Positions 446 to 63,838 of a stretch of DNA of 64,000 nucleotides are shown piece after piece. The translations under genes were made by a program, and so were the position numbers. Origin of the DNA: Perognathus longimembris pacificus (lineage: Eukaryota; Chordata; Mammalia; Rodentia; Heteromyidae); the NCBI RefSeq assembly GCF_023159225.1, contig NW_025958713.1, positions 1 through 64,000 on the forward strand, read 5' to 3'. Under the pieces are notes generated by a model, which saw only the letters and a list, made by a program, of their open reading frames with translations, made no database searches and was not told where the DNA came from. Position 1 is the stretch's first letter; every line of letters begins with the position of its first letter.

Positions 446-490
446 TGAAGTGCCAGACACGTGAAACCCATTTTAGAATCAAACCCTGAG

Positions 491-754: not shown

Positions 755-786
755 GGCCCCAGAGACCCCCGAGACCCCAGACTCCG

Positions 787-24700: not shown

Positions 24701-27700
24701 AGTTCAAGGCCCAGGCCCCTAGTTCAAGGCCCAGGATACAAGTTCAAGACCCACACCTCCAGTTCAAGGCCCAGGACCTGAGTTCAAGGCCCAGGCCCCG
24801 AGTTCAAAGCCCAGATGTGGAGTACAATGCCCTGGCCCAAGTTCAAGGCCCCGGGCTGAGATCAAGTTCCAGGCCCTGAGTTCAAGGACCAGGCCTGGAG
24901 TTCCAGGCCCAGGCCCTGAGTTCAAGACCAAGGCCTCGAGTTCAAGGCCCAGGAGCCAGTTCAAGGGTCAGACCTGACTTCAAGGCTCTAACCTGAGTTC
25001 AAGGCCCACACCTGAGTTCAAGGCTGATTTCAAGGCCCAGGCCCCGAGTTCAAGGCCAGGCTTCAAGTTCACGACTGAGACCCTGTGTTCAAAGCCCACA
25101 TCTGAGTTCAAGGCACAGGCCACAAGTTCAAGGCCCAGACCTGAGTTCAAGGCCCAAGCCCCGATTTTAAATACCAGGCCAGGAATTCCAGGCCCAGGCC
25201 CTGAGTTCAAGGCCAAGGCTGTGAGTTCAAGGCCTGATTTCAAGTCCCAGGCCCCAAGTTCTAGGCCAAGCCTTCATGTTCAAGACACAAGATCCAAGTT
25301 CAAGGCCCAGACCTGAATTCAAGGCCCAGGTAACAAGTTCAAGATCCAGATGCTAAGTTCAAGGCCCAGAACTGATTTCAAGGCCCAGGCCCCGAGTTCA
25401 AGGTGCAGACCCAAGTTCCAAAGACCAGGCCCTGAGTTCAAGGACCAGGCCTGGAATCCCAGGCCCAGGCTCCGAGTTAAAGGCCCAGGCTTCAAGTTCT
25501 AGGCAGAGACAATGAGTTCAAGGCCCAAAACTGAGTTCAAGTCCCAGGCCTGGAGTAGAAAAGCTCAGGCCCAATTTCAGTCCCAGGCCCTGTGTTCAAG
25601 TCCCAGCCCTGTTTCCAAGGCCTGACCTGACTTTAAGTTCAAGGCTGTTGTTTAGAGGCCTGGGTTCCATGCCTGGGCCACCATTTCAAGGCTAAGACCT
25701 TAGTTCAAGGCCCAGGCCATGAGTGCAAGGGTCAAGGACAGTGAGCTCAAGGCTCCGGCCCTGAGTTCCAGGCCCAGACCTGATTTCAAGGACCAGGCCC
25801 GGATTTCCATGCCCTGGCTCTGAGTTCAAGGCCAAGGCTCCCAGTTCAAGGCCCAGGACCAAAGTTCAAGGGTCAGACCTGACTTCTAGGCCCAGCCGCT
25901 GAGTTCAAGGCCCAGACCTGAGTACAAGGCTGAGACCTGAGTTCAAGGCAAAGGCCGTGAGTTCACAGCCTGAGTTCAAGACCCACGCCCTGAGTTCAAG
26001 GGCAAGGCCCCCAGTTCAAGGCCCAGGACACTAATTCAAGGGTCAGACCTGACATCAAGGACCAGCTCTGAGTTCTAGGCCCAGACCTGAGTTCAAGGCA
26101 AAGGCCGCGAGTTCAAGGCCAGGCCCTGAGTTCAATGCCCAGGCTCCAAGTTCACGACCCAGGATCCTAGTTCGAGGCCCAGACCATAGTTCAAAGCCCA
26201 AGCCCTGAGTTCAAGTACCAGGTCTGGAATTCCAGGCCCCAGGCCCCATGTTCAAGCTGAAGGCCCCGAGTTCATGGCCCAGGACCCAAGTTCTAAGTCC
26301 GACCTGACTTCAAGGCCCAGCCCTGAGTTCAAGGCACAGACCTGAGTTCAAGGCACAGATATGGTGTTCAAGGCCAGGCCCTGAGTTCAAGGCCCAGACC
26401 TGAGTTCAAGGCCCAGTACTTGAGTTCTAGTTTCAGACTTCATTCAAGGCCAAGACAATCATTTCAAAGCCCACACCTGATTTCAAGGCCCAGGCCTTCA
26501 GTAGAAGGCTCAGGCCAAATTTCAAGGCCAGACCTGAGGTCAAGACCAAGGCAGTAGGTTCAAGGCCTGAGTTCAAGTCCTAGGCCACCAGTTCAAGGCC
26601 AAGACCTTAGTTCAAGTCCCAGGCCATGAGGTCAATGTCTAAGAACACTGTGTTCAAGGCCCAGGCCCTGAGTTCAAGGCCCACATCTGAGTTCAAGGCC
26701 CAGGTCCCTAGTTCAAGGCCCAGGATACAAGTTCAAGACCCACACCCCCAGTTCAAGGCCCAGGCCCTGAGTTCAAGGCCCAGGCCCGAGTTCAAAGCAT
26801 GACCTGTTCAAGTCCCAGACCCTGAGTTCAAAGCCAAGATATGGAGTACAATGCCCTGGCCCAAGTTCAAGGCCCCAGCCTGAGATCAAGTTCCAGGCCC
26901 TGAGTTCAAGGACCAGGCCTGGAGTTCCAGGCCCAGGCCCTGAGTTCAAGACCAAGGCCTCGAGTTCAAGGCCCAGGAGCCAAGTTCAATGGTAAGACCT
27001 GACTTCAAGGCTCTAACCTGAGTTCAAGGCCCACACCTGCGTTCAAGGCCAAGGTTAGGAGTTCAAGGCTGATTTCAAGGCCCAGGCCCCGAGTTCAATG
27101 CCCAGGCTTCAAGTTCAAGACTGAGACCCTGAGTTCCAAGCCCACATCTGAGTTCAAGGCCCAGGCCACAAGTTCAAGGCCCAGACCTGAGTTCAAGTCC
27201 CAAGCCCCGATTTTAAATACCAGGCCCGGAATTCCAGGCCAGGCCCTGAGTTCAAGGCTCAGACCTGGGTTCAAGGCCAAGGCCCCAATTTCAAGGCCAA
27301 GGCCCCAAGTTCAAGGCCTGGGTTCAAGGCCTAGGCCACAAGTTCTAGGCCCAGGCTTCAAGTTCAAGGCCCAGACAATGAGTTCAAGGCCCACAACTGA
27401 GTTCAAGGCCCAGGCCTGGAGTAGAAGGCTCAGGCCCAATTTCAAGGCCTAGGCCCTGTGTTCATGGCCCAGACCTGTTTCCAAGGCCTGAGCAGACTTC
27501 AAGGCCAAGGCTGTTGTTTAGAGGCCTGGGTTCCTGGCCTTGGCCACCTTTTCAAGGTAAAGACCTTAGTTCAATGCCCAGGCCATGAGAGCAAGGCTCA
27601 AGGACACTGAGCTCAAGGCCCCAGCCCTGAGTTCCAGGCCCAGACATGAGTTCAAGGACCAGGCCAGGAGTTCCAGCCCCAGGCCCTGAGTCAAGGCCAA

Positions 27701-29197
27701 GGCCCCCAGTTCAAGTCCCAACACTAATTCAAGGGTCATAACTGACATCAAGGCCCAGCCCTGAGTTCTAGGACCAGACCTGAGTTCAAGGTAAAGGCCG
27801 CGAGTTCAAGGCCTGAGTTCAAGGTCCAAGCCCTGAGTTTAAGGCCCAGGCTCCATGTTCAAAGACCAGGACCCTAGTTCAAGGCCCAGGATCCTAGTTC
27901 AAGGCCCAAACCCCGAGTTCAAGTACCAGGACAGGAATTCCAGGCCCAGTCCCCAAGTTCAAGCTGAAGGCCCTGAGTTCAAGACCCAGGATCCAAGTTC
28001 AATGGTCCTGACCTGACTTCATGGCCCAGCCCTGAGTTTCAAGGCACAGATCTGGTATTCAAGGCCCAGGCCCTGAGTTCAAGGCACAGACCTGAGTTCA
28101 AAGGCCAAGCCCCTAGTTCAAGTACCAGGTCTGGAGTCCCATGCCGAGTTCCCACGTTCAAGCTGAAGGCCCCGATTTCAAGGCCCAGGACCCAAGTTCA
28201 AGGGTCAGACCTGAGTTTAAGGCCCAGACCTGAGTTCAGGGCCACAGCTACAAGTTCAAAGCCTGAGTTCAAGGCCCAGTCCCTGAGTTCTAGTCCCAGA
28301 CTTCATTCAAGCCTGAGACAATCACTTGAAGGCCCAAACCTGAGTTCAAGGCCCAAGTTTTAAGTAGAAGACTCAAGCCAAATTTCAAGGCCAGACCTGA
28401 GTTCAAGGCCAGGCAGTAGGTTCAAGGCCTGAGTTCAAGGCCTAGGCCACCAATTCAATGCCAAGACCTTAGTTCAAGTCCCAGGCCATGAGGTCAAGGT
28501 CCAAGGACACTGTGTTCAAAGCTCAGGCCCCGAGTTTAAGGCCCACATCTGAGTTCAAGGCCCAGACCTGAGTTCAAGGCCCAGATCTGGAGTTCAAGAC
28601 TCTGGCCTCGAGTTCAAGGCCAGACCTGAGTTCAAGGCCTTGGCCACCACTTCAATGCAAAGACCTTAGTTGTAGGCCCAGGCCATGAGTTCAAGCACCA
28701 CGGGAACTTAGTTCAATCACCAGACCCCGAGCTCAAGGCCCAGTATAAACATACTAGGCCCAGACCTGAATTCAAGACCCAGGCCCTGAGTTCAAGGCCC
28801 AACCCGAGTTCAAGGTCCACATCTGGAGTTCAAGGTCCAGTACCTTAGTTTAAGGCCCAGGCCTGGAGTTCAAGTCCCAGGCCCCAAGTTGAAGGTCCAT
28901 GCCCTCAGTTTAAGGCCCGGACCCATTTGAAGTCCCAGATCAGTAGTTCAAGGCCCAGACCCGAGTTCAAGGCCCAAGCCCCTAGTACAAATACCAGGCC
29001 CGGATTTCCAGGCTCAGGCTCTGAATTCAAGGCCAAGTCCCCATGTTCAAGGCCCAGGAACCTTGTTCAACGGTCAGACCTGACTTCAAGGCCCTACACT
29101 GATTTCAAGGCCCAGACCTGGGTTCAAGGCCAATGCCCCAAGTTCAAGGCCTGGGTTCAAGGACTAAGCCCCAAGTTCTAGGCCCAGGATCCAAGTT
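18769..29197 (-). repeat. 20-bp satellite, GAGTTCAAGGCCCAG orientation
   Basis: About 10.4 kb of degenerate 20-bp monomers (CTGAGTTCAAGGCCCAGACC), in the opposite orientation to 4649-8405. Blocks recur as higher-order units: CAAGTACCAGGC-x-CGGAATTCCAGGCCCTGGC occurs near 19530 and 23370, and the GTTGAAGGTCCAGGCC block near 21540 resembles one near 28890. Junction groups CCGAG, CTGAG and CCAAG before TTCAAGG alternate freely. It ends abruptly at CCAAGTTCAATGGAATGGAG, joining the pentamer satellite. Confidence 0.95.
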
Positions 29198-30529
29198 CAA
29201 TGGAATGGAGTAGAATATTCTAGAATAGAATAGAATGAATTAGAATATTCTAGAATAGAATAGAATGGAGTAGAATATAGCAGAATATTCTAGAATAGAA
29301 TAGAATAGAATAGAATAGAATAGAATGGAGTAGAATATTCTAGAATGGAATGGAATAGAATGGAGTAGGATATTCTAGAATAGAATGGAATAGAATAGAA
29401 TGGTGTAGAATATTCTAGAATAGAATGGAATAGAATGGAGTAGAATATTCCAGAATGTTCTGGAATACAATGATATAGAATATTGTAGAATGGAGTAGAA
29501 TATAGTAGAATAGTATAGAATGGAATAGAATATTCCAGAACAGAATAGAATGGAATGGAGTAGAATATTCCAGAATAGAATAGAAGAGAATAGGAGTAGA
29601 ATATGCTAAAATAGAATGCAATGGAATGGAATGGAGTAGAATATTCTAGAATAGAATAGAATTGAATGGAGTAGAATATTCTAGAATAGAATAGAATAGG
29701 GAGTAGAATATTCTAGAATAGAATGGAATGGAACGGAAAGGAATCGAGTAGAATATTCTAGAATAGAATAGAATCGAGTAGAATATTCCAGAATAGAAAA
29801 GAAAGGAATGGAGTAGAATATTCTAGAATAGAATAGAATGGAGTAGAATATTCTATACTAGAATAGAATAGGAGTAGAATATTCTAGAATAGAATGGAAT
29901 AGAATGGAATGGAATGGAGTAGAATATTCTGGGATAGAATAGAATGGAGTAGAATTTTCTACAATAGAATAGATTGGAGTAGAATACTCTAGAATAGAAT
30001 AGAATGGAGTAGAATGGAATGGAGTAGAATATTCTGGAATCGAATCGAATAGAGTAGAATGAAGTAGAATATTATAGAAATAAATGGAATCACATCGAAT
30101 CGAATCAAATCGAATAAAATAGAATAGAATACAATATGGTAGAATATTCAAGAATAGAGTGGAATAGAATGGGGTAGAATATTCCAGAATACTCTAGAAT
30201 AGAATGGAATAGAATAGAATAGAATGGAGTAGAATATTCTAGAATAGAATAGAATGGGGTAGAATATTCTAAAATAGAATACAATACAATGGAGTAGAAT
30301 ATTCTAGAATAGAATTGAATAAAATGGAGTAGAGTATTCTAGAATAGAATAGAATGGGATGGAATGGAGTAGAATATTCTAGAATAGAATGGATTGGATT
30401 AGAATATACTAGAATAGAATACAATAGAATGGAGTAGAATATTCTACAATATAATGGAATGGAATGGAATGGAATGGAATTGAGTAGAATATTCTAGAAT
30501 AGAATAGAATGGAATGGAATGGAGTAGAA

Positions 30530-33500
30530 TATTCTAGAAAAGAATAGAATGGAATAGAATATTCTCGAAGAGAATAGAATGGAGTAGAATATTATGGAAT
30601 AGAATAGAATAGAATAGAATAGAATAGAGAAGAATATTCTAGAATAGAATGGTATAGAATGGAGTAGGATATTCCAGAATAGAATAGAATAGAATAGAAT
30701 AGAATGAAGTAGGATATTCCAGAATAGAATGGAATAGAAAGGAGAAAATATACCAAAATATTCTAGAAGAGAATAGAATAGAATAGAGTAGAATGGGGTA
30801 GAATATTGAACAATATAATAGAAAGGAGCAGAATATTCCAGAATAGAATAGAATGGAATGGATTAGAATATTACAGAAGAGAATAGAATAGAATGGAGTA
30901 GAATATTATACAATACAATAGAATTGAATTGAATAGGTGTAGAATGTTCTAGAGTAGAATGGAATGGAATGGAGTGGAATGGAGTAGAATATTCTAGAAT
31001 GGAATGGAATGGAATGGAGTAGAATATTCCAGAATAGAATATAATGGAGTAGAATATTCCAGAACAGAATAGAATGGAATGGAGTAGAATATTCCACAAT
31101 AGAATAGAATGTAGTAGAATATTATAGAATAGAATAGAATAGGAGTAGAATATGCGAGAAGAGAATGGAATGGAATGGAATGGAGTAGAATATTCTAAAA
31201 TAGAATAGAATTGAATGGAGTAGAATATTCTAGAATACAGTAGGAGTAAAACATTCTAGAAGAGAATGGAATGGAATGGAATGGAATCGAGTAAAATATT
31301 CTAGAATACAATAGAATGGAGTAGAATATTCTAGAATAGAATAGAATGGAGTAGAATATTCTAGAATACAATAGAATGGAGTAGAATATTGTAGAATAGA
31401 ATAATATAGAAGTAGAATATTCTAGAAAAGAATGGAATGGAATGGAGTAGAATATTCTAGAATAGAATACAATGGAATGGAATGGAATGGAGTAGAATAT
31501 TCTAGAATAGAATAGAATCGAGTAGAATATTCTAGAATAGAATAGAATGGAGTAGAATATTCTAGAATAGAATAGAATAGATTAGAATGGAGTAGAATAT
31601 TCTAGAATAGAATGGAATAGAATAGGATAGGAGTCCAATATTCTAGAATAGAATAGAATGGAGTAGAATATTCTAGAATAGATTAGAATAGAATAGAAAG
31701 GGGTAGAATATTCTAGAATAGAATAGAATATAATGGAATGGAATGGCGTAGAATATTCTGAATAGAAAGGATTGGAGTAGAATATTCTGGAATAGATTAG
31801 AATATAACATAAAGGAGTAGAATATTCTAGAATAGAATAGAATGGAATGGAATGGTATGCAATGGAATGCAGTAGAATATTCTAGAATAGAATAGAATGG
31901 ATTAGAATATTCTAGAATAGAATAGAATGGAGTAGAATAGAGTGGAATATTCTAGAATAGAATAGAATAGAATGGAGCAGAATATTCTAGAATGGAATGG
32001 AATGGAATGGAGTAGGATATTCTAGAATAGAATGGAATAGAATAAAATGGAGTAGAATATTCTAGAATAGAATGGAATAGAATGGAGTAGAATATTCCAG
32101 AATGTTCTAGAATAGAATGGTATAGAATGGAGTAGAATGGAATAGAATATGGTATAATAGAATAGAATGGAGTAGAATATTCCAGAACAGAATAGAATGG
32201 AATGGAGTAGAATATTCCAGATTAGAATAGAATGTAATAGAATATTATAGAATAGAATAGAATTGAATAGAATAGAATAGGAATAGAATATTCTAGAATA
32301 GACTGGAATAGAAGAGCATAGGAGTACAATATTCTAGAATAGAATACAATGGAGTTGAATATTCTAGAATAGATTAGAATAGAATAGAATGGAGTAGAAT
32401 ATTCTAGAATAGAATAGAATAGAATGGAATGGAATGGAATAGAATATTCTGGAATAGAAATGATTGGAGTAGAATATCTACAATAGATTAGAATATAACA
32501 GAAAGGAGTAGAATATTCTAGAATAGCATAGAATGGAATGAAATGCAATGCAATGGAGTGGAGTAGAATATTCTAGAATAGAATAGAATGATTAGAATAT
32601 TCTAGAATAGAATAGAATGGAGTAGTGGATTAGAATATTCTAAAATAGAATAGAATGTAGTAGAATAGAGTAGAATATTCTAGAATAGAATAGAATAGAA
32701 TAGAATGGAGTAGAATTTTCTAGAATGGAATGGAATAGAATGGAGTAGGATATTCTAGAATAGAATGGAATAAAATAGAATGGTGTAGATTATTCTAGAA
32801 TAGAATGGAAAGAATCCAGTAGAATATTCCAGAATGTTCTGGAATAGAATGTTATAGAATAGAGTAGAATGGAGTACAATATTGTAGAATAGAATAGAAT
32901 GGAGTAGAATATTCCAGAACAGAATAGAATGGAATGGAGTAGAATATTCCAGAATAGAATAGAATACAATGTAGTAGAATATAATATAATAGAATAGAAT
33001 AGAAGTAGAATATTCTAGAATAGAATGGAATGGAATGGAGTAGAATATTCTAGAAGAGAATAGAATTGAATGGAGTAAAATATTCTAGAATAGAATAGAA
33101 AAGACTAGGAGGAGAATATTCTAGAATAGAATGGAATGGAATGGAATGGAATGGAGTAGAATATTCTAGAAAATAATAGAATGGAATGGAATGGAATGGA
33201 GTAGAATATTCTAGAATAGAATAGTATTGAATGGAGTAGAATATTATAGAATACAATAGAATAAAATAGGAGTAGAATATTCTAGAATAGAATGGAATGG
33301 AACGGAAAGTAATCGAGTAGAATATTCTAGAATAGAATAGAATGGGAGTAGAATATTCCAGACTGGAAAAGAATGGAATGGAGTAGAATATTCTAGAATA
33401 GAATAGAATGGAGTAGAATATTCTAGAATAGAATAGAATAGAATAGGAGTAGAATATTCTAGAATAGAATGGAATGGAATGGAATGGAGTAGAATATTCT

Positions 33501-34040
33501 GGAATAGAATAGAATGCAGTAGAATATTCTAGAATAGAATAGAATGGAGTAGAATACTCTACAATAGAATACAATAGAATGGAATGGAATGGAATGGAGT
33601 AGGGATATTGTAAAATAGAAGAGAAGCAAATAGAATATAATAGAATAGCTTGGAATGGAGTAGAATATTCTGGAATCGAATCGAATAGAGTAGAATGGAG
33701 TAGAATATTCTAGAGTAGAATAGAATGGAGTAGAATATTCTAGAATAGAATAAAATAGAATATAATGGAGTATAATATTCTAGATTAGAATACTATAAAA
33801 TGGAATCGAATACAGTAGAATATTCTAGAATAGAATAGATTGGAGTAGAATATTCTAGAATAGAATAAAATAGAATATAATGGAGTATAATATTCTAGAT
33901 TAGAATACTATAAAATGGAATCGAATACAGTAGAATATTCTAGAATAGAATGTATTTTAGTAGAATATTCTAGAATAGAATGGAATGTAATGTAATGGAA
34001 TGGAGTAGAATATTCTAGAATAGAATAGAATGGAATGGAA
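30530..34040 (+). repeat. Higher-order repeat, copy 1 (3.51 kb)
   Basis: Private variants recur 3511-3521 bp downstream: GAATATTGAACAATATAATA at 30801 and 34312, AATGGTATGCAATGGAATGC at 31851 and 35371, AGTAGTGGATTAG at 32621 and 36142. Confidence 0.85.
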
Positions 34041-37000
34041 TGGAGTAGATTATTCTAGAAAAGAATAGAATGGAATAGAATATTCTCGAAGAGAATAGAA
34101 TGGAGTAGAATATTATGGAATAGTATAGAATAGAATAGAATAGAGAAGAATATTCTAGAATAGAATGGTATAGAATGGAGTAGGATATTCCAGAATAGAA
34201 TAGAATAGAATAGAATGAAGTAGGATATTCCAGAATAGAATGAATAGAAAGGAGTAAAATATTCCAAAATATTCTAGAAGAGAATAGAATAGAATAGAGT
34301 AGAATGGGGTAGAATATTGAACAATATAATAGAAAGGAGCAGAATATTCCAGAATAGAATAGAATGGAATGGATTAGAATACTACAGAAGAGGATAGAAT
34401 AGAATGGAGTAGAATATTATACAATACAATAGAATTGAATTGAATAGGGGTAGAATGTTCTAGAGTAGAATGGAATGGAATGGAGTGGAATGGAGTAGAA
34501 TATTCTAGAATGGAATGGAATGGAATGGAGTAGAATATTCCAGAATAGAATATAATGGAGTAGAATATTCCAGAACAGAATAGAATGGAATGGAGTAGAA
34601 TATTCCACAATAGAATAGAATGTAGTAGAATATTATAGAATAGAATAGAATAGAATAGAATAGGAGTAGAATATGCGAGAAGAGAATGGAATGGAATGGA
34701 ATGGAATAGAATATTCTAAAATAGAATAGAATTGAATGGAGTAGAATATTCTAGAATAGAGTAGGAGTAAAACATTCTAGAAGAGAATGGAATGGAATGG
34801 AATGGAATCGAGTAAAATATTCTAGAATACAATAGAATGGAGTAGAATATTCTAGAATAGAATAGAATGGAGTAGAATATTCTAGAATACAATAGAATGG
34901 AGTGGAATATTGTAGAATAGAATAATATAGAAGTAGAATATTCTAGAAAAGAATGGAATGGAATGGAGTAGAATATTCTAGAATAGAATACAATGGAATG
35001 GAATGGAATGGAGTAGAATATTCTAGTAGAATAGAAATCGAGTAGAATATTCTAGAATAGAATAGAATGGAGTAGAATATTCTAGAATAGAATAGAATAG
35101 ATTAGAATGGAGTAGAATATTCTAGAATAGAATGAATAGAATAGGATAGGAGTCCAATATTCTAGAATAGAATAGAATGGAGTAGAATATACTAGAATAG
35201 ATAAGAATAGAATAGAATGGGGTAGAATATTCTAGAATAGAATAGAATATAATGGAATGGAATGGCGTAGAATATTCTGGAATAGAAAGGATTGGAGTAG
35301 AATATTCTGGAATAGATTAGAATATAACATAAAGGAGTAGAATATTCTAGAATAGAATAGAATGGAATGGAATGGTATGCAATGGAATGCAGTAGAATAT
35401 TCTAGAATAGAATAGAATGGATTAGAATATTCTAGAATAGAATAGAATGGAGTAGAATAGAGTGGAATATCCTAGAATAGAATAGAATAGAATGGAGCAG
35501 AATATTCTAGAATGGAATGGAATGGAATGGAGTAGGATATTCTAGAATAGAATGGAATAGAATAAAATGGAGTAGAATATTCTAGAATAAAATGGAATAG
35601 AATGGAGTAGAATATTCCAGAATGTTCTAGAATAGAATGGTAAAGAATGGAGTAGAATGGAATAGAATATGGTATAATAGAATAGAATGAAGTAGAATAT
35701 TCCAGAACAGAATAGAATGGAATGGAGTAGAATATTCCAGATTAGGATAGAATGTAATAGAATATTATAGAATAGAATAGAATTGAATAGAATAGAATAG
35801 GAATAGAATATTCTAGAATAGACTGGAATAGAAGAGCATAGGAGTACAATATTCTAGAATAGAATACAATGGAGTTGAATATTCTAGAATAGATTAGAAT
35901 AGAATAGAATGGAGTAGAATATTCTAGAATAGAATAGAATAGAATGGAATGGAATGGAATAGAATATTCTGGAATAGAAAGGATTGGAGTAGAATATTCT
36001 ACAATAGATTAGAATATAACAGAAAGGAGTAGAATATTCTAGAATAGCATAGAATGGAATGAAATGCAATGCAATGGAGTGGAGTAGAATATTCTAGAAT
36101 AGAATAGAATGATTAGAATATTCTAGAATAGAATAGAATGGAGTAGTGGATTAGAATATTCTAAAATAGAATAGAATGTAGTAGAATAGAGTAGAATATT
36201 CTAGACTAGAATAGAATAGAATAGAATAGAATGGAGTAGAATTTTCTAGAATGGAATGGAATAGAATGGAGTAGGATATTCTAGAATAGAATGGAATAAA
36301 ATAGAATGGTGTAGATTATTCTAGAATAGAATGGAAAGAATCCAGTAGAATATTCCAGAATGTTCTGGAATAGAATGTTATAGAATAGAGTAGAATGGAG
36401 TACAATATTGTAGAATAGAATAGAATGGAGTAGAATATTCCAGAACAGAATAGAATGGAATGGAGTAGAATATTCCAGAATAGAATAGAATACAATGTAG
36501 TAGAATATAATATAATAGAATAGAATAGAAGTAGAATATTCTAGAATAGAATGGAATGGAATGGAGTAGAATATTCTAGAAGAGAATAGAATTGAATGGA
36601 GTAGAATATTCTAGAATAGAATAGAAAAGACTAGGAGGAGAATATTCTAGAATAAAATGGAATGGAATGGAATGGAATGGAGGTAGAATATTCTAGAATA
36701 GAATAGTATTGAATGGAGTAGAATATTATAGAATACAATAGAATAAAATAGGAGTAGAATATTCTAGAATAGAATGGAATGGAACGGAAATTAATCGAGT
36801 AGAATATTCTAGAATAGAATAGAATGGAGTAGAATATTCCAGACTGGAAAAGAATGGAATGGAGTAGAATATTCTAGAATAGAATAGAATGGAGTAGAAT
36901 ATTCTAGAATAGAATAGAATAGAATAGGAGTAGAATATTCTAGAATAGAATGGAATGGAATGGAATGGAGTAGAATATTCTGGAATAGAATAGAATGCAG

Positions 37001-37520
37001 TAGAATATTCTAGAATAGAATAGAATGGAGTAGAATACTCTACAATAGAATACAATAGAATGGAATGGAATGGAATGGAGTAGGATATTGTAAAATAGAA
37101 GAGAAGCAAATAGAATATAATAGAATAGCTTGGAATGGAGTAGAATATTCTGGAATCGAATCGAATAGAGTAGAATGGAGTAGAATATTCTAGAGTAGAA
37201 TAGAATGGAGTAGAATATTCTAGAATAGAATAAAATAGAATATAATAGAGTATAATATTCTAGATTAGAATACTATAAAATGGAATCGAATACAGTAGAA
37301 TATTCTAGAATAGAATAGATTGGAGTAGAATATTCTAGAATAGAATAAAATAGAATATAATGGAGTATAATATTCTAGATTAGAATACTATAAAATGGAA
37401 TCGAATACAGTAGAATATTCTAGAATAGAATGTATTTTAGTAGAATATTCTAGAATAGAATGGAATGTAATGTAATGGAATGGAGTAGAATATTCTAGAA
37501 TAGAATAGAATGGAATGGAA
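34041..37520 (+). repeat. Higher-order repeat, copy 2 (3.5 kb)
   Basis: Near-identical to 30530-34040, with a few indels (for example one block around 33160-33210 in copy 1 is absent near 36680). Immediately adjacent and in the same orientation, so a tandem duplication. Confidence 0.85.
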
Positions 37521-38159
37521 TGGAATGGAGTAGAATATTCTAGTATAGAATACAATGGAGTAGAATATTCTAGAAGCAAATAGAATGGAGTAGAATGTTC
37601 TGGAATATAATAGAATATAATAGAATAGAATGGAGTAGAATATTCTAGAATGGAATGTTATAGAATGGAGTAGAATATTCTAGAATAGATTAGAATACAA
37701 TAAAATGGAGTACAATATTCTAGAATAGTATAGACTATAATGGAATGGAATTGAGTAGAATATTTTGGAATAGAATGGATTGGCGAGGAATATTCTAGAA
37801 TAGAATAAAATGGAGCAGAATATTGTAGTATAGAATAGAATAAAATGGAAAGGAATGGGGTAGATTATTCTAGAATAGAATAGAATGGAGTAGAATATTC
37901 TAGAATAGAATAGAATGGAGTAGAATTGAGTAGAATAGAATAGAATGGTGTAGAATACTCTAGAATGGAATGGAATAGAATGGAGTAGGACATTCTAGAA
38001 TATAATGGAAAGAATAGAATGGAGTAGAATATTCTAGAATGGATTGGAATGGAGTAGAATATTTCAGAATATAATATAATAGAATGGAATAGAATAGAAA
38101 TTAGTAGAATATTCTAGAATAGATTGGAACAGAATAGAATGTAGTAGAATATTCTAGAA

Positions 38160-39600
38160 TATAAAGGTTTGGAGTAAATATTCTAGAATAGATTAGAATA
38201 GAACAGAAAGGAGTAGAATATTCTAGAATAGAATAGAATGGAATGGAATGGTATGCAATGGAATGCAGTACAATATTCTAGAATACAATAGAATGGATTA
38301 GAATATTCTAGAATAGAGTAGAATGGAGTAGAATAGAGTGGAATATTCTAGAATAGAATAGAATGGAGCAGAATATTCTAGAATGGAATGGAATGGAATG
38401 GAGTAGGATATTCTAGAATAGAATGGAATAGAATAAAATGGAGTAGAATATTCTAGAATAGAATGGAATAGAATGGAGTAGAATATTCCAGAATGTTCTA
38501 GAATAGAATGGTATAGAATGGAGTAGAATGGAATAGAATACGGTATAATAGAATAGAATGGAGTAGAATATTCCAGAACAGAATAGAATGGAATGGAGTA
38601 GAATATGCCAGAATAGAATAGAATGTAATAGAATATTATAGAATAGAATAGAATTGAATAGAATAAAATAGGAATAGAATATTCTAAAATAGACAGGAAT
38701 AGAAGAGCATAGGAGTACAATATTCTAGAATACAATACAATGGATTTGAATATTCCAGAATAGATTAGAATAGAATAGAATGGAGTAGAATATTCTAGAA
38801 TAGAATAGAATGGAATGGAATGGAATGGAATGGAATAGAATATTCTGGAATAGAAAGGATTGGAGTAGAATATTCTACAATACATTAGAATATAACAGAA
38901 AGGATAGAATATTCTAGAATAGCATAGAATGGAATGAAATGCAATGCAATGGAGTGGAGTAGAATATTCTAGAATAGCATAGAATGATTAGAATATTCTA
39001 GAATAGAATAGAATGGAGTAGTGGATTAGAATATTCTAGAATAGAATAGAATGTAGTAGAATAGAGTAGAATATTCTAGAATAGAATAGAATAGAATAGA
39101 ATGGAGTAGAATTTTCTAGAATGGAATGGAATAGAATTGAGTAGGATATTCTAGAATAGAATGGAATAAAATAGAATGGTGTAGAATATTCTAGAATAGA
39201 ATGGAATAGAATCCAGTAGAATATTCCAGAATGTTCTGGAATAGAATGTTATAGAATAGAGTAGAATGGAGTAGAATATTGTAGAATAGAGTAGAATGGA
39301 GTAGAATATTCCAGAACAGAATAGAATGGAATGGAGTAGAATATTCCAGAATAGAATAGAATACAATGTAGTAGAATATAATATAATAGAATAGAATAGA
39401 AGTAGAATATTCTAGAATAGAATGGAATGGAATGGAGTAGAATATTCTAGAAGAGAATAGAATTGAATGGAGTAGAATATTCTAGAATAGAATAGAAAAG
39501 ACTAGGAGGAGAATATTCTAGAATAGAATGGAATGGAATGGAGTGGAATATTCTAGAAAATAATAGAATGGAATGGAATGGAATGGAGTAGAATATTCTA
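38160..39600 (+). repeat. Higher-order repeat, partial copy 3
   Basis: AATGGTATGCAATGGAATGC at 38247 and AGTAGTGGATTAG at 39017 are both about 2875 bp after their copy-2 equivalents. Only the middle of the unit is present and divergence is higher. Confidence 0.7.
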
Positions 39601-42376
39601 GAATAGAATAGAATGGAGTAGAATATTCTAGACAAGAATAGATTGGAGTAGAATACACTGGAATATAATAGAATAGAATAGAATAGAATGGAGTAGAATA
39701 TTCTAGAATGGAATGGTATAGAATGGAGTAGAATATTCGAGAATAGATTAGAATACAATAAAATGGAGTAGAATATTCTAGAATACAAGAGACTAGAATG
39801 GAATGGAAAGAGTAGAATCTTTTGGAATAGAATGGATTGGCCTAGAATATTCTAGAATAGAATAAAATGGAGCAGAACTTTGTAGAATAGAATAGAATAA
39901 AATGGAATGGAATGGAGTAGATTATTCTAGAATAGAATAGAATGGAGTAGAATATTCTAGAATAGAATAGAATGGCATAGAATTGAGTAGAATAGAATAG
40001 AATAGAATGGAATGGAGTAGAATATTCTAGAATGGAATGAAATAGAATGCAGTAGGACATTCTAGAATAGAATGGAAAGAAGAGAATGGAATAGAATATT
40101 CTAGAATGGAATAGAATGGAGTAGAATATTTCAGAATATAATAGAATAGAATGGAAAAGAATAGAATTTAGTAGAATATTATACAATAGAATGGAACAGA
40201 ATAGAATGGAGTAGAATATTCTAGAATAGAAAGTATTGTAGTAGAATATTCTAGAATAGATTAGAATAGAACAGAAAGGAGTAGAATTATCTAGAATAGA
40301 ATGGAATGAAATGAATGGAGTAGAATATTCTAGAATAGAATAGTATTGAATGGAGTAGAATATTCTAGAATAGAATAGAATAGGAGTAGAATATTCTAGA
40401 ATAGAATTGAATGGAACAGAAAGGAATTGAGTAGAATATTCTAGAATAGAAGAGAATGGAGTACAATATTCCAGAATAGAAAAGAATGAAATGGAGTAGA
40501 ATATTCTAGAATAGAATAGAATGCAGTAGAATATTCTAGAATAGAATAGAATAGGAGTAGAATATTCTAGAATAGAATGGAATGGAATGGAATATAATGG
40601 AATGGAGTAGAATATTCTGGAATAGAATAGAATGGAGTAGAATTTTCTAGAATAGAATAGAATGGAGTAGAATACTCTAGAATAGAATAGAATAGAATGT
40701 TATGGAATGGAATAGGATATTGTAAAATAGAAGACAAGCAAATAGAATAAAATAGAATGGAATGGAGTAGAATATTCTGGAATCGAATCGAATAGAGTAG
40801 AATGGAGTAGAATATTCTAGAATATAATAGAATGGAGTAGAATATTCCAGAATAAAATAGAATAGAATGGAGTAGAATATTCTAGAATAGAATGGAATAG
40901 AATGGAGTAGAATATTCAGAATTTTCTAGAATAGAATGGTAAAGAATGGAGTAGAATGGAGTAGAATATTGTAGAATAGAATGGAATGGAGTAGAATATT
41001 CCAGAATAGAATAGAATGTAGTAGAATATTACAGAATAGAGTAGGGTTGAATAGAATAGAATAGGAGTAGAATATTCTAGAAGAGAATGGAATGCAATGG
41101 ATTAGAATATTCTAGAATAGAATAGAATAGAATGGAGTAGATTAGAATAGAATAGAATAGAATAGGAATAGAATATTCCAGAAGAGAATGGAATGGAATG
41201 GAATAGAGTAGAATATTCTAGAATAGAATAAAATGGAGTAGAATATTCCAGAATAGAAAAGAACAGAATGGAGTAGAATATTCTATAATAGAATAGAATG
41301 TAGTAGAATATTGTAGAATAGAATAATATAGGAGTAGAATATTCTAGAATAGAATGGAATGGAATGGAATGGAATGGAATGGAATGGAGTAGAATATTCT
41401 AGAATAGAATAGAATGGAGTAGAATATTCTTGAAGAAAATAGAATGGAATAGAATATTCACGAATGGAACAGAATTGAGTAGAATATTTCATAATATAAT
41501 AGAATAGAATGGAAAAGAATAGAATATTATAGAATAGAATGGAACAGAATAGAATGGTGTAGAATATTCTAGAATAGAAAGGATTGGAGTAGAATATTCT
41601 AGAATAGATTAGAATAGAACAGAAAGGAGTAGAATATTGTAGAAAAGAATAGAATGGATTAGAATTTCTAGAATAGAATAGAATGGAGCAGAATAGAGTG
41701 GAATATTCTAGAATAGAATAGAATAGAATGGAGTAGAATATTCTAGAATGGAATGGAATAGAATGGAGTAGGATATTCTAGAATAGAATGGAATAGAATA
41801 GAATGGTGTAGAATATTCTAGAATAGAATGGAATAAAATGGAGTAGAATATTCCAGAATGTTCTGGAATAGAATGATATAGAATAGAGTAGAGTGGAGTA
41901 GAATATTGTAGAATAGAATAGAATAGAGTAGAATATTCCAGAACAGAATAGAATGGAATGGAGTAGAATATTCCTGAATAGAATAGAATAGAATGTAGTA
42001 GAATATTATAGAATAGAATAGAATAGGAGTAGAATATTTTAGGATAGAATGGAATGGAATGGAATGGAGTAGAATATTCTAGAAGAGAATAGAATTGAAT
42101 GGAGTAGAATATTCTAGAATAGAATAGAAAAGAATAGGAGTAGAATATTCTAGAATAGAATAGAATGGAGTAGAATATTCTAGAATAGAATAGAATAGAA
42201 TAGATTGGAGTAGAATATTCTAGAATAGAATAGAATGGAGTAGAATATTTTAGAATATTCTAGAATAGAATGGAATGGAATGCAGTAGGATATTATAGAA
42301 TAGAAGAGAATCAAATAGAATAGAATAGAATAGAATAGAATAGAATAGAATAGAATAGAATAGAATGGAATAGAAT

Positions 42377-42564
42377 ATGTGGCCCTAGCAGTAGAGCAGT
42401 CGCCTTTCATGCCCACAGCCCTAAGTTCGATACCCATGTCTGGGAAGTAATGGTACTTCATTCTCTGTGTTGTGGAGAACCAACATGGTTGCCTTGGAAT
42501 GATGCCATAGAGGCTCAAACCACCAGGAGCACAGGAAGGGAGGAATGCTGGCATTTCCTTTCTT
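42377..42564 (+). mobile_element. tRNA-like SINE at the satellite boundary
   Basis: GTGGCCCTAGCAGTAGAGCA and AAGTTCGATACCCATGTC: both Pol III boxes are diverged. The body contains CTCAAACCACCAGGAGCACA. The pentamer satellite stops within a few bases of its 5' end (ATAGAATATGTGGCC). Confidence 0.75.
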
Positions 42565-42763
42565 TTTTCTCTGTTTACCAGTCCTGGGGCTTGAACTCGG
42601 GGCCTGAGCAGAGTCCGTGGCTTCTTTTAGGTCAAGGCTAGCACTCTACCACTGAGCCACAGCTCCACTCCCTTCATTTTCTGTGCATGTCGGGCTGGGG
42701 TTGCGAACCCAGGGCTTCATGCATGCGAGGCCAGCACTGTACCACTGGGCCACATTCCCGGCC
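42565..42763 (-). mobile_element. Dimeric ID-like SINE
   Basis: Plus strand shows CTTGAACTCGGGGCCTGAGC and GGTTGCGAACCCAGGGC; the left B box is altered. Opposes the preceding SINE as in the other cassettes. Confidence 0.8.
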
Positions 42764-43515
42764 TCTACCATTGGGACTTTTTTTGCTTAACTTCCTGCTT
42801 GTTGCTTGGAATTCTGGGGACAGATATCTCTACTGCCATCCTGTGGGCGAGGGAGGAATTGCATAAGTTTGAAGGTAACTCCCTGGCGCCAACCAGTGGA
42901 ATTTGGTCCACATGGCATCCGGCCTGGAGAAGGGAATTGTGGGAACAGAGATCTCTACTGCCACCGTGTGGCTGAGGGAGGAATTACATGTTTGAAAGTA
43001 CCTTTGTGGCGCCACCAGTCGAATTTGTTGCGCATGACATCCTGCAGCCAATTAAATTGTGGCAACAGAGATCTCTACTGCCACCCTGTGGACAAGTAAG
43101 GGATTTTGGGAATTTGCGTAGATCTCTAGCTCCACCCAGTGGATATTTGTGTCCATGATTTCCTCCCTAGGAGGAGGAAATCAGGCATCTTGGCATTCTG
43201 GGAAATGTGAACTCTAGCGCCACCCTGTGGACTGGATGGGGATTTGCTGCTGACTGTAGGCCTCTGCCGCCCACCCAGTGGAATGTCCTGTGTATAACAC
43301 CCTGCCGGCATGTGAGAATTCTTGACCCTGTGATCTCTGGGTTCCCCCTGTGGTCGAGCGTGGGATTTCCCTGCTGTCTGTGGATCTCTGTCGTTATCGA
43401 GGGGAGTCGTGTGGGCCTCACGTCCTGCCCGCTGATGATCACTCTCAGGACCCGAAGCGTCCAAGTCCACCCTTTGGGTGAGAGAGCCATGGCCCCCAAG
43501 TCTATTCTTCAGGTA
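42764..43515 (+). repeat. 122-bp array and cassette block P, copy 3
   Basis: 42764-42944 is the 122-bp array (CCCTGGCGCCAACCAGTGG). From about 42945 it matches 10456-10978 and 14950-15524, with an extra GGAGGAGGAAATCAGGCATC near 43168. Ends at TATTCTTCAGGTATTCTTCC. Confidence 0.85.
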
Positions 43516-44168
43516 TTCTTCCTGTCTTTCTGTCTATCTATCTACCCATCTATGTAATTACCAATCTACTTTTTAATCTATCTATGTACCTATCTAATTA
43601 TCTATCTATCTATCTAACTATCTATCTAACTATGTATGTATTTGTCAATCTATTTAAATATGTATTTATCTAACTAACCATCTGTCAAACTATTATCTAT
43701 ATATCTAACTATCCAAATAACTATGTACCTATCTATCTAAATATCTATGTGTCTATTTATACAACTATATATCTAACTCTCTATCTACCTGCCTATCTAT
43801 GCATCTTCTTTCTAACTGCATATCTAAGTAGCAATCAAAGGATCTATGTATCTATCTATGTATCTATCTGTCTATCTACCTATCTATTAAACTATCTATC
43901 CAAGTATCTATTTATCTATTTACCTATCTGACTATCTATCTAATTATCTATCAAAATATCTATGTATCTCTGTATATAACTATGTATCTATGTATCTATC
44001 TGTCCATCTAACTAATTATTTATATAAGTATCTACATATCTTACTATTTCTTCATCTAACTATTTATCTATTTATCCATGTAACTATGTGCCTGTCTAAA
44101 TAACATCTATCTACCTATGTACCTATCTATCTAGCTATCTAACAATCTATGTAACTATCTTACTATGA
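43516..44168. repeat. (TATC)n microsatellite, cassette copy 3
   Basis: Same variant order as the tracts at 10979 and 15525, 28 kb away, and bordered by the same cassette sequence on both sides. Confidence 0.95.
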
Positions 44169-44352
44169 TATCTGTTTCCATTATTCCAAACGTCTGGCAG
44201 GATTTCATGCACACAAAATTCCACTGGGGGGCAGCAGAGAGCTATAGAAAGCAGTCAATTCCCCTCATGGCCACACGGTGGCAGTAGAGATCTCTGCTCC
44301 CAGAATACCAGCCTCCAAGCAGGAAGTTAAGCCCAGGAAACCCTGCTGAAAA
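44169..44352 (-). repeat. 122-bp array segment after the third microsatellite
   Basis: Parallels 11621-11796 and 16181-16358. First core is CCACTGGGGGGCAGCAGAG, the CTCF-like core with GGGG in place of GGGT. Confidence 0.8.
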
Positions 44353-44559
44353 GCACTGGGGTGGTGGCTTAGTGGTAGAGCGCTCGCCCTGCATGCATGC
44401 AGCCTGGGTTCAATTCCCGGGTCAGGAAAGTCACAGTTTTTCATCTTCTGTGTGGTGGAGAACAAACATGACAGCCTTGGCATGCCGCCCTAGAGGTTCA
44501 AACCACCAGAAGCACAGGAAGCAGGAAATAGTGGCATTTCCTTTCTTTTCTTTCCTGTT
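44353..44559 (+). mobile_element. tRNA-like SINE
   Basis: GGTGGCTTAGTGGTAGAGCG and GGGTTCAATTCCCGGGTCA; the body includes GGTTCAAACCACCAGAAGCA. Confidence 0.8.
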
Positions 44560-44755
44560 TGCCTGTCCTAAGGTTTGAACTCAGGGCCTGAGCACTGTCC
44601 CACGCTTCTTTTGGCTCAAGGCGAGTACTCCACCACTTGTGCCACAGCGCCACTCCCTTCATCTTCTGTGTATGTTGGGCTGGGGACTTGAACCCAGGGC
44701 TTCATGCATTTGAGGCCAGCACTGTGCCACTAGGCCACATTCCCAGCCTCTCCCA
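44560..44755 (-). mobile_element. Dimeric ID-like SINE
   Basis: Plus strand: AGGTTTGAACTCAGGGCCTG, then GGGGACTTGAACCCAGGGC and CACTAGGCCACATTCCCAGC. Full dimer. Confidence 0.8.
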
Positions 44756-45472
44756 GTGGGATTTTCTGGACTTAACTTCCTGGCTAGAGCTTGGAATTCT
44801 GGAAACAGAGATCTCTACTGCCATCCTGTGGCTGAGGGAGGAATTGTGCTGCTTTGCATAGATCTCTAGCCCCACCCAGTGGATATTTAAGGCATAACAT
44901 CCTGCAACGTGTTTGGAATTCTAGAAAATGTGATCTCTGCTGCCACCTTATGGGCAAGAAGGAAATTTACTGCTTTCAGTAGATCTCTGCTGCCACCCAG
45001 TGGATCAAAAGGACATAGCATCCAAAGACTAGCAAGGAATTCTGGGAAATGCGCTCTCTGCTGACACGTCGTGAACAGGAGATGAAGTACTCCCTTTATC
45101 TTCGGGGACGGCACACACCTTCACTATGAATGCTTTCTGAGCATTCTAACACTTGCCAACATGGAGATCCAAACCTGTCACCCTTCTCAGAATTATCACC
45201 CCACTGGCCAGATTGTAATGCACATAGAATTCCATGGGGTGGAGCCAGAGAGCCATCGAAGGCAGTGTAATTCCTCCCTTGTCCCATTGGGTGACAGCAG
45301 AGATCTCTGTTTCCATTATCCCTACCTGCTGGCAGGATGTCATGCGCACCAAACTCCACTTGGTGGCAGCAGAGAGGTACAGAAAGAAGTCAATTCGCCT
45401 CTTGGCCACAGGGTGGGCAGTAGAGATCGCTGCCACCAGGCAGGAAATTAGGCCCAGGAAACCCTGCTGAAA
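44756..45472 (+). repeat. 122-bp tandem array, one unit shorter
   Basis: The array is reduced relative to 12179-13032 (the CTCTGGCGCC unit is missing after GCTGAGGGAGGAATTG). Hinge CACCTTCACTATGAATGC at about 45117; then reversed units with TGGGGTGGAGCCAGAG and CTTGGTGGCAGCAGAG. Confidence 0.8.
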
Positions 45473-48804: not shown

Positions 48805-48853
<49 letters not shown>

Positions 48854-59283: not shown

Positions 59284-59515
59284 TGTGAGGTCATAGTGTG
59301 TGTGAGTTCACAATGCATTGAAATCATTGTGATGTGACAGTGAATATATGTCTAATGTGTGTGAGGGAAGAGTGAATGTGAGGACATAGTGAGTTTTTGT
59401 TCACAGTAGGCCAAGGTCCTAACTGATATGAGGACGGAATTTATGTGAAGCCAAATGGGCACGAAGTTGTAATGAATGTGAGGTCACAATGGATTTGAGT
59501 ACATAATAGAGCTTG
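59284..59515 (+). repeat. Second copy of the satellite's first 240 bp
   Basis: Follows 53654-53896 in order: GAGTTCACAATGCATTGA, GTGTCTAATGGGTGTGAG-type sequence, GTTCACAGTAGGCCAA, GTCCTAACTGATATGAG and GAGTACATAATAGAGCT. The spacing is about 5.63 kb. The copy stops at GAGCTTGAATAG, where the pentamer satellite starts. Confidence 0.85.
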
Positions 59516-62500
59516 AATAGAATAGAATGGAGTAGAATATTCTAGAATGGAAAGGAATATAATGCAATAGAATAGAATGAAGTAGAATATTCTAGAATAC
59601 AATAGAATGCAGTAGAATATTCTAGAATAGAATAGAATGGAGTAGAGTGGAGTAGAATAGTCTGGAATAGAATAGAATAGAATAGAATAGAATAGAATAG
59701 AATGGAGTAGAATATTCTAGAATGGAATGGAATGGAATGGAATAGAATCGAATGGAGTAGAATATTCTAGAATTGAATGGAATAGAATGGAGTAGAATAT
59801 TCCAGAATATTCAAGAATGGAATGGAATAGAATAGAATTGAATGGAGTAGAAAATTCTAGAATAGAATAGAATAGAATGGCGTAGAATATTCTAGGATAG
59901 AATAGAATGGAGTAGAATGGAGTAGAATAATCTAGAAAAGAATAGAAGAGAATGGAGTAGAATATTCTAGAGTGGAATGGAATAGAATGGAGTAGAATAT
60001 TCCAAAATATTCTAGAATAGAATGGAATAGAATAGAATGGAGTAGAATATTCCAGAGTAGTATACAATGGAATGGAGTAGAATATTCGAGAATAGAATAG
60101 AATAGATTGGAGTAGAATATTATAGAATAGAATAGAATTGAATAGAATAGGAGAAGAATATTCTACATTAGAACAGAATGGAGTAGAATAATCTAGAATG
60201 GTATAGAATGGAGTAGAATGGAGTAGAATATTCCAGAATAGAATAGAATGGAGTAGAATATTCTAGAATAGAATGGAGTAGAATATAATAGAATAGAATG
60301 GAATCGATTGGAGTAGAATATTCTACAATAGAATGGATTGGAGTAGAATATTCTAGAATAGAATAGATTATAATAGAATGTAATTGAATATGCTAGAATT
60401 GAATGCAATGGAATGGAATGGAATGGAGTAGAAAATTCTAGAACAGAATAGAATAGAATTGAATGAATGGAATGGAGTAGAATATTCTAGAATAGAATAG
60501 AATGAGTAGAATACTTCAGAATAGAACAAAATGGAGTAGAAATGAGTAGAATATTCCAGAATAGAATAGAATAGAATAGTATAGAATAGAATGGAGTAGA
60601 ACATTCTAGATTGGAATGGAATTGAATGGAGTAGGGTATTCAGGAAAAGAATGGAATAGAATAGAATGGAGTGGAATATTCTAGAATAGAAGAGAATAGA
60701 ATAGAATAGAATGGAGTAGAATATTCCAGAATAGAATAGAATAGGAGTAAAATATTCTAGAATAGAATGGAATGGAATGCGTTGGAGTAGAATATTCTGG
60801 AATAGAAAATAATGGAGTAGAATATTCTAGAATAGAATAGAATGGAGTAGAATAGAATAGAATACAATACAATAGGAGTAGAATATTCTAGAATACAATA
60901 GAATAGAATGGTGTAGAATATTCCAGAATAGAATGGAATAGAATAGAGTAGGAAGAGAATATTCTAGAATACAACAGAAAAGAAAGGAATGGATTAGAGT
61001 AGAATATTATAGAATGGAATAGAAGGGAGTAGAATATTCTTGAATAGAATAGAATAGAACAGAATGGAGTAGAATATTCTAGAATATTCTAGAATAGAAT
61101 AGATTGGAATAGAATATTCTAAAATAGAATAAAATAGAATAGAATAGAATAGAATGGTGTAGAATATTCTAGAATAGAATAGAATAGAAAAGAATAGAAT
61201 AGAATGGAATCGAATGGAGTAGACTATTCTAGAATAGAATGGAATGGAATGGAATGGAGTAGAATATTCTACAATAGAATAGAATGGAGTATAATATTCT
61301 AGAATAGAATAGAATGGAGTAGAATGGAGTATAATATTCTAGAATAGAATAGAATGGAATGGAGTAGAATATTCTAAAATGGAAGGGAATAGAATGGAGT
61401 AGGATATTCCAGAATATTCTAGAATAGAATGGAATAGAATAGAATGGAGTAGAATATTCTAGAATAGAATAGAATAGAGTAGAATATTCCAGAATAGAAT
61501 AGAATGGAATGGAGTAGAATAATCTAGAATAGAATCGAATAGAATGGAGTAGAATATTCTATAATAGAATAGAATGGAGTATAATATTCTAGAATGGAAT
61601 TGATGGAGTAGAATGGAGTAGAATATTCTAGAATGGAATAGAATGGAGTAGAATATTCTAGAATAGAATGAAATAGAATGGAGTAGAATAGTCTAGAATA
61701 GAATGGAATCGAATGGAGTAGAATATTCTAGAATAGAATGGAATGGAATGGATTGTAGTAGAATATTCTACAATAGAATAAAAGGAGAAGAATATTCTAG
61801 AATAGAATAGAATGGAGTAGAATTGAGTAGAATATTCTAGAATAGAATAGAATAGAATAGAATAGAATGGAGTAGAACATTCTAGAATGGAATGGAATAG
61901 ACTGGAGTAGGGTATTCTAGAATAGAATGGAATGGAATAGAATGGAGTAGAATAATCTAGAATAGAATAGAATAGAAGAGAATGGAGTAGAATATTCTAG
62001 AATATAATAGAATAGAAGAAAATATTTTAGAATAGAATGGATTGGAAGGGAATGGAATGGAATGGAATAGAATATTTTGGAATAGAATTGAATGGAGTAG
62101 AATATTCTAGAATAGAATAGAATGGAGTAGAATAGAACACAATAGAATAGAATAGAATAGGAGAAGAATATTCTAGAATAGAATGGAATGGAATGGAGTA
62201 GGATACTCTAGAATAGAAGGGAATAAAATAGAATAGAAGAAAATAGAATGGAATGGAGTAGAATATTCTGGAATCTGATCAAATAGAGTAGAAAGAAGTA
62301 GAATATTCTAGAATAAAATGGAATCAAATCGAATCGAATAGAATTGAATCGAATCCAATCGAATAAAATAGAAAATACGAGAATGGAGGAGAATATTCTA
62401 GAATAGAGTAGAATAGAATGGAGTAGAATATTCCAGAATATTCTAGAATAAAATGGAGTAGAATATTCTAGAATAGAATAGATTGGAGAAAAATATTCTA

Positions 62501-63735
62501 GAATAGAATGGAGTAGAATATTCTTGAATAGAATGGAATAAAATAGAGTAGGAGTAGAATATTCTAGAATACAATAGAAAGGAATGGAATGGATTGGAGT
62601 AGAATATTCTAGAATAGAATGCAATGGAGTAGAATATTCTTGAATATAATAGAATAGAATGGAATGGAATGGAGTAGAATAGTCTAGAATAGAATAGAAT
62701 GAAGTAGAATATTCTACATTAGAATAGAATAGAATAGAATAGAGTAGAATGGAGTAGAATATTCTAGAATAGAATAGAATAGAATGGAGTCGAATATTCT
62801 AGAATGGAATGGAAGAGAATGGAATAGAATAGAATGGAGTAGAATATTCTATAATTGAATTGAATAGAATGGAGTAGAATAGAATAGAATGGAGTTGAAT
62901 ATTCTAGAATAGAATAGAGTAGAATATTCTAGAATAAAATAGAATGGAGTAGAGTATTCTGGAATAGGATGGAATAGAATAGAATCGAAAAGGAGTAGAA
63001 TTTTCTAGAATAGAATAGAATGCAGTAGAATATTCTAGAATAGAATAAAATAGAATGGAATCGAATGGAGTAGAATATTCTAGAATAGAGTGGATGAGAG
63101 TAGAATATTCTAGAACAGAATAGAATAGAATGGAGTAGAATATTCTAGAATGGATTGGAATGGAACGGAATGGAGTAGAATAATCTAGAAGAGAATAGAA
63201 TGGAATGTAATGGAATGTAGTAGAATATTCTAGAATAGAATAGAATGGAGTAGAGTATTCTAGAATATAATAGAATGGAGTAGAATATTCTAGAATAGAA
63301 TAGAATAGAATAGAATGGAGTAGAATAATCTAGAATAGAATGGAGTAGAATATTCTAGAATAGAGTAGAATGGAGCAGAATATTCTAGAATAGAATAGAA
63401 TAGAATGAAGTAGAATATTCTAGAATAGGATAGAATACGAGTAGAATATTCTAGAATAGAATGGATGGAACGGAGAAGAATATTCTACAATAGAATTGAT
63501 TGGAGTACTATATTCTAGAATCGAATAATCTAGAATAGAATAGAAGGCAGTAGAATATTCCAGAATACAATAAAATAGAATAGAAGAGGAATAGAATATT
63601 CTAGAATAGAATGGAATGGAAAGGAGTAGGATATTCTAGAATAGAAGAGAATCAAATAGAATAGAATAGAATAGAATAGAATGGAATGGAGTAGAATATT
63701 CTGGAATCGAATCGATTAGAGTAGAATCGATTAGA
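59516..63735 (+). repeat. Pentamer satellite, second block
   Basis: Same family and orientation as 29198-42376: AGAAT pentamers with GAATATTCTAGAA elements every 40-60 bp. Variants GAATATTCCAGAA and GAATAATCTAGAA are frequent. Ends ATCGATTAGAGTACCGTGG, joining unique DNA. Confidence 0.95.
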
Positions 63736-63838
63736 GTACCGTGGCCAGTGAAATGCACTGGTTCCTTCCCGATATCTTTGCCCTGAAGAACATTCTGGAA
63801 ATTCTCCACGTCGGCCTCACTCAGCGTGCGCCTTCGGC
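63736..63838 (-). pseudogene. Exon-like coding stretch of unknown gene, cut by satellite
   Basis: On the minus strand, a pyrimidine-rich run ending TTTGCAG (63845-63839) is a good splice acceptor. After GC, the frame reads RRRTLSEADVENFQNVLQ and continues GKDIGKEPVHFTGHG without a stop. It has a balanced, protein-like composition unlike any other frame here. The satellite begins at the next codons, so either the donor is at the boundary (CACG|GTACTC is a weak donor) or the exon is truncated. I do not recognise the gene. It could be a real exon at the edge of a gene lying to the left before rearrangement, or a fragment carried in by segmental duplication. Confidence 0.4.

Follow-up and report, generated by a model that had tools for sequence, protein, structure and literature searches.

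The question raised by this locus is whether a satellite built from five-base units can act as a platform for the heat-shock factor HSF1, and whether it would do so in the manner of human satellite III. The window, i.e. the whole 64-kb stretch of DNA that was analysed, contains two arrays of one family, placed at 29198..42376 (A1, + strand) and at 59514..63737 (A2, + strand). The open-licence literature gave no published description of this repeat among the matches listed. An exact 25-mer of the repeat is absent from the viral and genome contig collections, both of which are poor in mammalian satellites, and Rfam (at gathering thresholds) and ARAGORN returned no matches in the 64-kb window.

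A1 is a single tandem array of 13,179 bp in a five-base register (A 46%, T 26%, G 24%, C 4%), in which AGAAT, GGAAT and GGAGT pentamers are interspersed with inverted ATTCT and ATTCC units. TRF places it at 29199-42377, in agreement with the ends used here. The array was parsed into 2677 units, including 1154 AGAAT, 273 GGAAT, 231 GGAGT, 227 ATTCT and 46 ATTCC; only 66 have a length other than five. The exact nGAAn pattern is found in 1564 units and the exact nTTCn pattern in 293. The parse agrees with the initial annotation, which had described a five-base nGAAn lattice with inverted units. On the other hand, the spacing of 40-60 bp that it assigned to the inverted units is too high, as these recur at a median of 39.5 bp (mean 44.7, longest 141) and 183 of the 292 gaps measure exactly 30, 35, 40 or 45 bp. 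The usual order at the inverted unit is GGAGT-AGAAT-ATTCT-AGAAT-AGAAT, followed by further AGAAT or GGAAT. AGAAT adjoins the inverted unit on the left in 244 and on the right in 209 of the 293 cases. The XbaI site TCTAGA is present 212 times in A1, compared with these 293 inverted units.

Sites with at least three alternately inverted nGAAn units in a 5-bp register, i.e. three-unit heat-shock elements (HSE), occur in both arrays. Counted on both strands, A1 contains 232 and A2 contains 70, whereas their dinucleotide shuffles (30 for each array) average 0.13 and 0.03; this bears out the claim that a perfect three-unit HSE appears in A1 over and over. The main orientation, GAAnnTTCnnGAA, accounts for 290 of the 302 HSE, with 224 copies in A1 and 66 in A2. 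In 100 shuffles of each kind, A1 yielded a mean of 0.07 copies when single nucleotides were shuffled (maximum 1) and of 0.12 when dinucleotides were preserved (maximum 3); the mean in 100 dinucleotide shuffles of A2 was 0.08. The excess persists even when whole pentamers are permuted (1000 permutations), a treatment that leaves a mean of 100.2 copies in A1 (sd 8.3, maximum 125) and of 35 in A2 (maximum 48). The core word AGAATATTCTAGAAT, whose first copy lies at 29212..29226 on the + strand, has 140 exact + strand copies in A1, compared with 42.0 after pentamer permutation (sd 6.0, maximum 60).

Ideal (GGAAT)n and (AGAAT)n arrays contain no HSE, and therefore it is the inverted unit that makes the difference. 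Part of the HSE richness would arise wherever a unit of an nGAAn lattice is inverted. The remainder is due to the intact AGAAT that flanks the inverted unit on both sides. Fewer copies of the opposite orientation, TTCnnGAAnnTTC, are present than after pentamer permutation (8 against 18.6 in A1, 4 against 6.3 in A2) because inverted units are rarely close to each other. Alternating runs longer than three units are rare: those of four units number 8 in A1 and 3 in A2, and those of five units give identical numbers. The term "continuous", applied to the grid by the initial annotation, is slightly strong. Intact main-orientation HSE do recur in A1 at a median of 45 bp (mean 58), but the largest gap between them reaches 199 bp.

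The predicted quality of these sites can be compared with the base contacts described for the factors. According to PMC8379338, HSF1 and HSF2 trimers prefer alternating nGAAn units in which TTC and GAA are separated by a pyrimidine-purine step; the favoured base before GAA is a purine, thymine being apparently not tolerated, and contacts are made to the adenine before TTC. The pyrimidine-purine step at TTCnnGAA is present in 290 of the 302 HSE, 216 of them with TA, and in 250 each of the three units has an adenine in front of TTC. The base before GAA is A or G in 296, 297 and 294 of the HSE for units 1, 2 and 3, respectively, and thymine in only 5, 3 and 5. Exactly AGAATATTCTAGAAT is found in 183 of the 302. 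The HSE of both arrays thus fit, as sequences, the base contacts described for the trimers in PMC8379338. HSF1 would very probably bind the naked array DNA well, whereas binding in stressed cells would depend on the chromatin and has about an even chance.

The manner in which the HSE word spread in A1 is shown by the amplification of a block of about 3.5 kb. Two copies of this block lie on the + strand at 30210..33541 (3332 bp, 57 + 2 HSE) and 33711..37052 (3342 bp, 55 + 2 HSE). They are offset by about 3501 bp and 93.5% identical (BLAST, gaps counted), with 55 mismatches in 3263 aligned bases. A partial third copy at 37873..39898 (+ strand) is 90.7% identical to 34996-37026, and its part at 37873-39632 is 93.6% identical to 31475-33250. 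The longest exact stretch found when A1 is compared with itself measures 398 bp. Because of these block copies, the HSE of A1 are mutually non-independent. A2, with 853 units (373 AGAAT and 75 GGAAT), matches A1 over 800 bp or more at 78-80% identity and has no internal exact repeats of 60 bp or more. A variant stretch, AGAAGAGAATCAAATAGAATAGAATAG, is located near the right end of both A1 (42302-42328) and A2 (63643-63669), as if the two ends came from a common ancestral array end.

The block copies also allow the conservation of the HSE to be assessed in a comparison that avoids choosing units by their likeness to the core, although the four pairs overlap and are non-independent. Substitutions affect 12 of 541 positions in HSE triplets and 16 of 863 in other GAA triplets in the first pair (Fisher p 0.70), 13 of 344 and 16 of 441 in the second (p 1.0), 24 of 407 and 37 of 520 in the third (p 0.51), and 3 of 265 and 13 of 401 in the fourth (p 0.12). 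The HSE spacers, with 0 of 243 positions changed, are better kept than the HSE triplets in the first pair (p 0.022); in the other three the same comparison gives p 0.60, 1.0 and 0.38. The HSE triplets are therefore no better kept between blocks than other GAA triplets, and selection on the HSE is unsupported.

An alignment of individual units gives a weak hint of constraint on the HSE. It was anchored on GGAGT, with 315 anchors in A1 and A2, of which 279 were kept as inverted; 26 forward and 10 ambiguous ones were dropped, the ambiguous class including units too far from the core. Changed cells amount to 126 of 2511 in the HSE triplets and 124 of 1674 in the spacers (Fisher p 0.0017). The HSE triplets also show fewer changes, namely 63 of 837 at G/C and 43 of 1116 at AA, than the next non-HSE pentamer, where the numbers are 41 of 279 (p 0.0008) and 53 of 558 (p 6e-6). 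This excess is discounted because choosing units by core likeness favours kept triplets, because variation is higher anyway in the test pentamers that lie further from the anchor, and because 42 of the 124 changes in spacers come from a single homogenised T-to-C variant, ATTCC; with positions as units, triplets and spacers differ at a one-sided p of 0.20. Selection on the HSE was consequently rejected, the unit-level hint being outweighed by the position-level test and the block comparison. A further unit test was set aside, since its non-inverted lattice positions are confounded with decayed HSE. Its stricter setting gave, in A1, changes in 222 of 2899 HSE triplet positions and 144 of 1914 spacer positions, and in its looser setting the triplets changed more than the spacers.

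The neutral-looking substitutions between blocks, together with the amplification by blocks, are what would be expected if the HSE were a silent by-product, formed from one inverted pentamer, amplified and then permanently buried in heterochromatin, unseen by HSF1. The same reading gains from the presence in the window of two other satellites with factor-like words, which indicates that such matches arise readily. The first, diverged and with a repeat of about 20/39 bp (CCCAGACCTGAGTTCAAGG), occupies 18758-29151 on the + strand and, as an opposite-facing array on the opposite strand, 4649-8400 (both from TRF). It contains YCAAGGYCR, which we take to be an NR5A-like word, 53 times in the former and 19 times in the latter, with shuffle means of 2.4 and 0.8 (30 shuffles). 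A diverged 17-bp satellite resembling TGTGAGGTCACAATGGG (53600-59500, TRF) holds AGGTCA, presumably a nuclear-receptor half-site, 35 times against a shuffle mean of 4.4 (30 shuffles). The pentamer arrays themselves contain GGAATG, a word that we assume to be of the TEAD type, 180 times in A1 (shuffle mean 9.5) and 40 times in A2 (mean 2.7), and a TEAD-type role for these words is conceivable. Factor-word-rich satellites are thus not rare in the window, which serves as a look-elsewhere warning for the HSE reading. Nevertheless, the three-unit HSE is longer, more specific and more exactly matched than the words of the neighbouring satellites. A second point against permanent silence is that human satellite III, although pericentric and heterochromatic, is still activated via HSF1 on stress (PMC7889540). 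A permanently silent by-product is, in our assessment, unlikely.

The remainder of the window holds other repeated elements. An endogenous retrovirus remnant, recognised by eye, spans 446-4648 and is flanked by direct repeats (446-734 and 4360-4648) that agree at 279 of their 289 aligned positions. Degenerate TCTA/ATCT arrays at 42377-46900 and at about 8900-18300, the latter as given by TRF rows alone, are accompanied by blocks of some 115-125 bp that contain words such as GTGGCGCCAGAGAG; the recurrence of these blocks suggests segmental duplication around the satellites. SINE-like copies were noticed by eye in 42377-46900; these SINE-like blocks are, we presume, reminiscent of kangaroo-rat-type elements. 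A long degenerate ATCC array extends over 48992-53551 (TRF), and the strands are strongly asymmetric there, with a GC skew of -0.58 to -0.79 in 2-kb windows from 48001 to 54000.

The inverted unit might also matter for pairing and not for HSF1. The palindromes AGAATATTCT and ATTCTAGAAT would then provide stems and pairing in trans to single strands and transcripts alike, and repeated stems are predicted in the transcripts because AGAATATTCT is a palindrome. Folding models lean in this direction: nine 200-nt RNA windows were more stable than their shuffles, with z values from -2.5 to -10.0 (mean -5.1, 60 dinucleotide shuffles each), and one 300-nt piece gave z -6.2 as RNA and -5.9 as DNA. The 25-nt core is predicted to form a self-duplex at -13.4 kcal/mol, against +1.8 for (GGAAT)5, and perfect (GGAAT)n has a predicted fold energy of 0, unlike putative transcripts of A1. 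However, a repeated palindrome alone yields such folding, so that it is not independent of the HSE, and the word bears no sign of selection between blocks. Pairing as the reason for the inverted unit is thus very improbable.

A working analogue of human satellite III would require more of the array. Heat-activated HSF1 would bind it and recruit acetylation and RNA polymerase II, and the resulting UAGAAU-rich RNA would form foci resembling nuclear stress bodies that hold splicing factors. The number and quality of the HSE in A1 and A2 are in line with this sequence of events, and HSF1 is recruited on heat shock even to a 3564-bp human Yq12 satellite III sequence for which no more than four perfect HSE are reported (PMC7889540). 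Human satellite III is transcribed mainly as the GGAAU strand (PMC9032817), and the G-rich strand of A1 is the + strand, with 44.6 GGA and 94.4 AGAA per kb. On the other hand, according to a review (PMC8535310), no nuclear stress body has ever been seen in a rodent, and a positive result in a rodent host would therefore be a surprise; moreover, the HSE show no sign of selection between blocks. We regard these events, taken jointly, as having a low probability, and a stress-body-like role of the array is doubtful to the same degree. Still less probable is the fullest form of the idea, in which a non-primate mammal would have evolved, independently of satellite III, a satellite with a strong HSF1 site in nearly every 40-bp unit. 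This satellite would be used as an HSF1 focus activated by stress, and its self-complementary RNA, rich in AGAAU, would build a nuclear stress body.

The explanation that we favour, if only modestly, is that a pentamer satellite with a fixed inverted unit constitutes an unusually strong potential HSF1 sink. One inverted pentamer is part of the commonest unit, in which GGAGT-AGAAT-ATTCT-AGAAT-AGAAT is followed by further pentamers in variable number. This unit was amplified, lately in the blocks of about 3.5 kb seen in the block copies, presumably by unequal exchange. In an nGAAn lattice, an inverted unit placed between two direct ones automatically forms a three-site HSE, and most inverted units of the array lie in a near-ideal HSF site because their flanks are mostly intact AGAAT. 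When HSF1 is active and the chromatin permissive, each kb could accommodate trimers at as many as about 17 sites. The array would then be first a passive sink and possibly an HSF1 focus, any transcription being secondary. The sink property is probably an accident of homogenisation, and no selected function is needed to account for the sequence of the array. Satellites are usually packed in repressive chromatin, which could exclude HSF1 and counts against the sink reading. A satellite with about 15 times the HSE density published for the Yq12 satellite III stretch would be a natural titration experiment. It would ask whether the number of HSE alone is enough to make heterochromatin heat-responsive, and whether a large HSF1 sink blunts the normal heat-shock response. 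If HSF1 ignored the array, this would mean that it is the chromatin and not the density of the motif that decides.

Human satellite III is made of GGAAT pentamers with an interspersed CAACCCGAGT-type 10-mer. This 10-mer has no exact copy in A1 or A2 on either strand, and its one match in the 64-kb window lies inside the 20-bp satellite. Homology with satellite III was rejected on account of this absence. The proposal of an independent analogue is, for the same reason, reasonable as far as the sequence is concerned; adaptation is disfavoured, as the HSE triplets are not specially conserved between the block copies. Among other known systems, the mouse major (gamma) satellite is a rodent satellite for which upregulation by heat shock was reported in leukaemia cells (PMC10813801), but it has a 234-bp AT-rich unit (PMC9032817) and no pentamer lattice. 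Compared with a canonical HSE, AGAATATTCTAGAAT agrees with the definition given in PMC8379338, including the TA step between TTC and GAA; typical HSE are described there in promoter regions, whereas those of A1 and A2 are the repeating unit of a satellite. DYZ1 shares with A1 a multi-kilobase higher-order unit, 3.6 kb (PMC4022460) against about 3.5 kb, a likeness of size only, read as coincidence and not as kinship of sequence. The resemblance to satellite III resides in the pentamer lattice of the nGAAn type and in the HSE that it contains. The main unit differs, being AGAAT and not GGAAT: among the 2677 units of A1, 1154 are AGAAT and 273 GGAAT, and for the 853 units of A2 the corresponding numbers are 373 and 75. 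A GAA unit beside TTC is found in none of the 14 subfamily-specific HSat3 24-mers of PMC4022460, which were compared by eye and are not whole repeat units. The HSE of satellite III, called poor by the initial annotation, are better described as sparse, given that the four Y-linked ones are called perfect (PMC7889540). Segments of 3564 bp taken every 50 bp along A1 contain 58-70 HSE (median 61), a density about 15 times the published Yq12 count, the ratio being approximate because the counting rule of PMC7889540 may differ from the one used here. The locus is thus, as first proposed, an HSE-rich pentamer satellite, with a higher HSE density than the stretch of human satellite III for which a count has been published.
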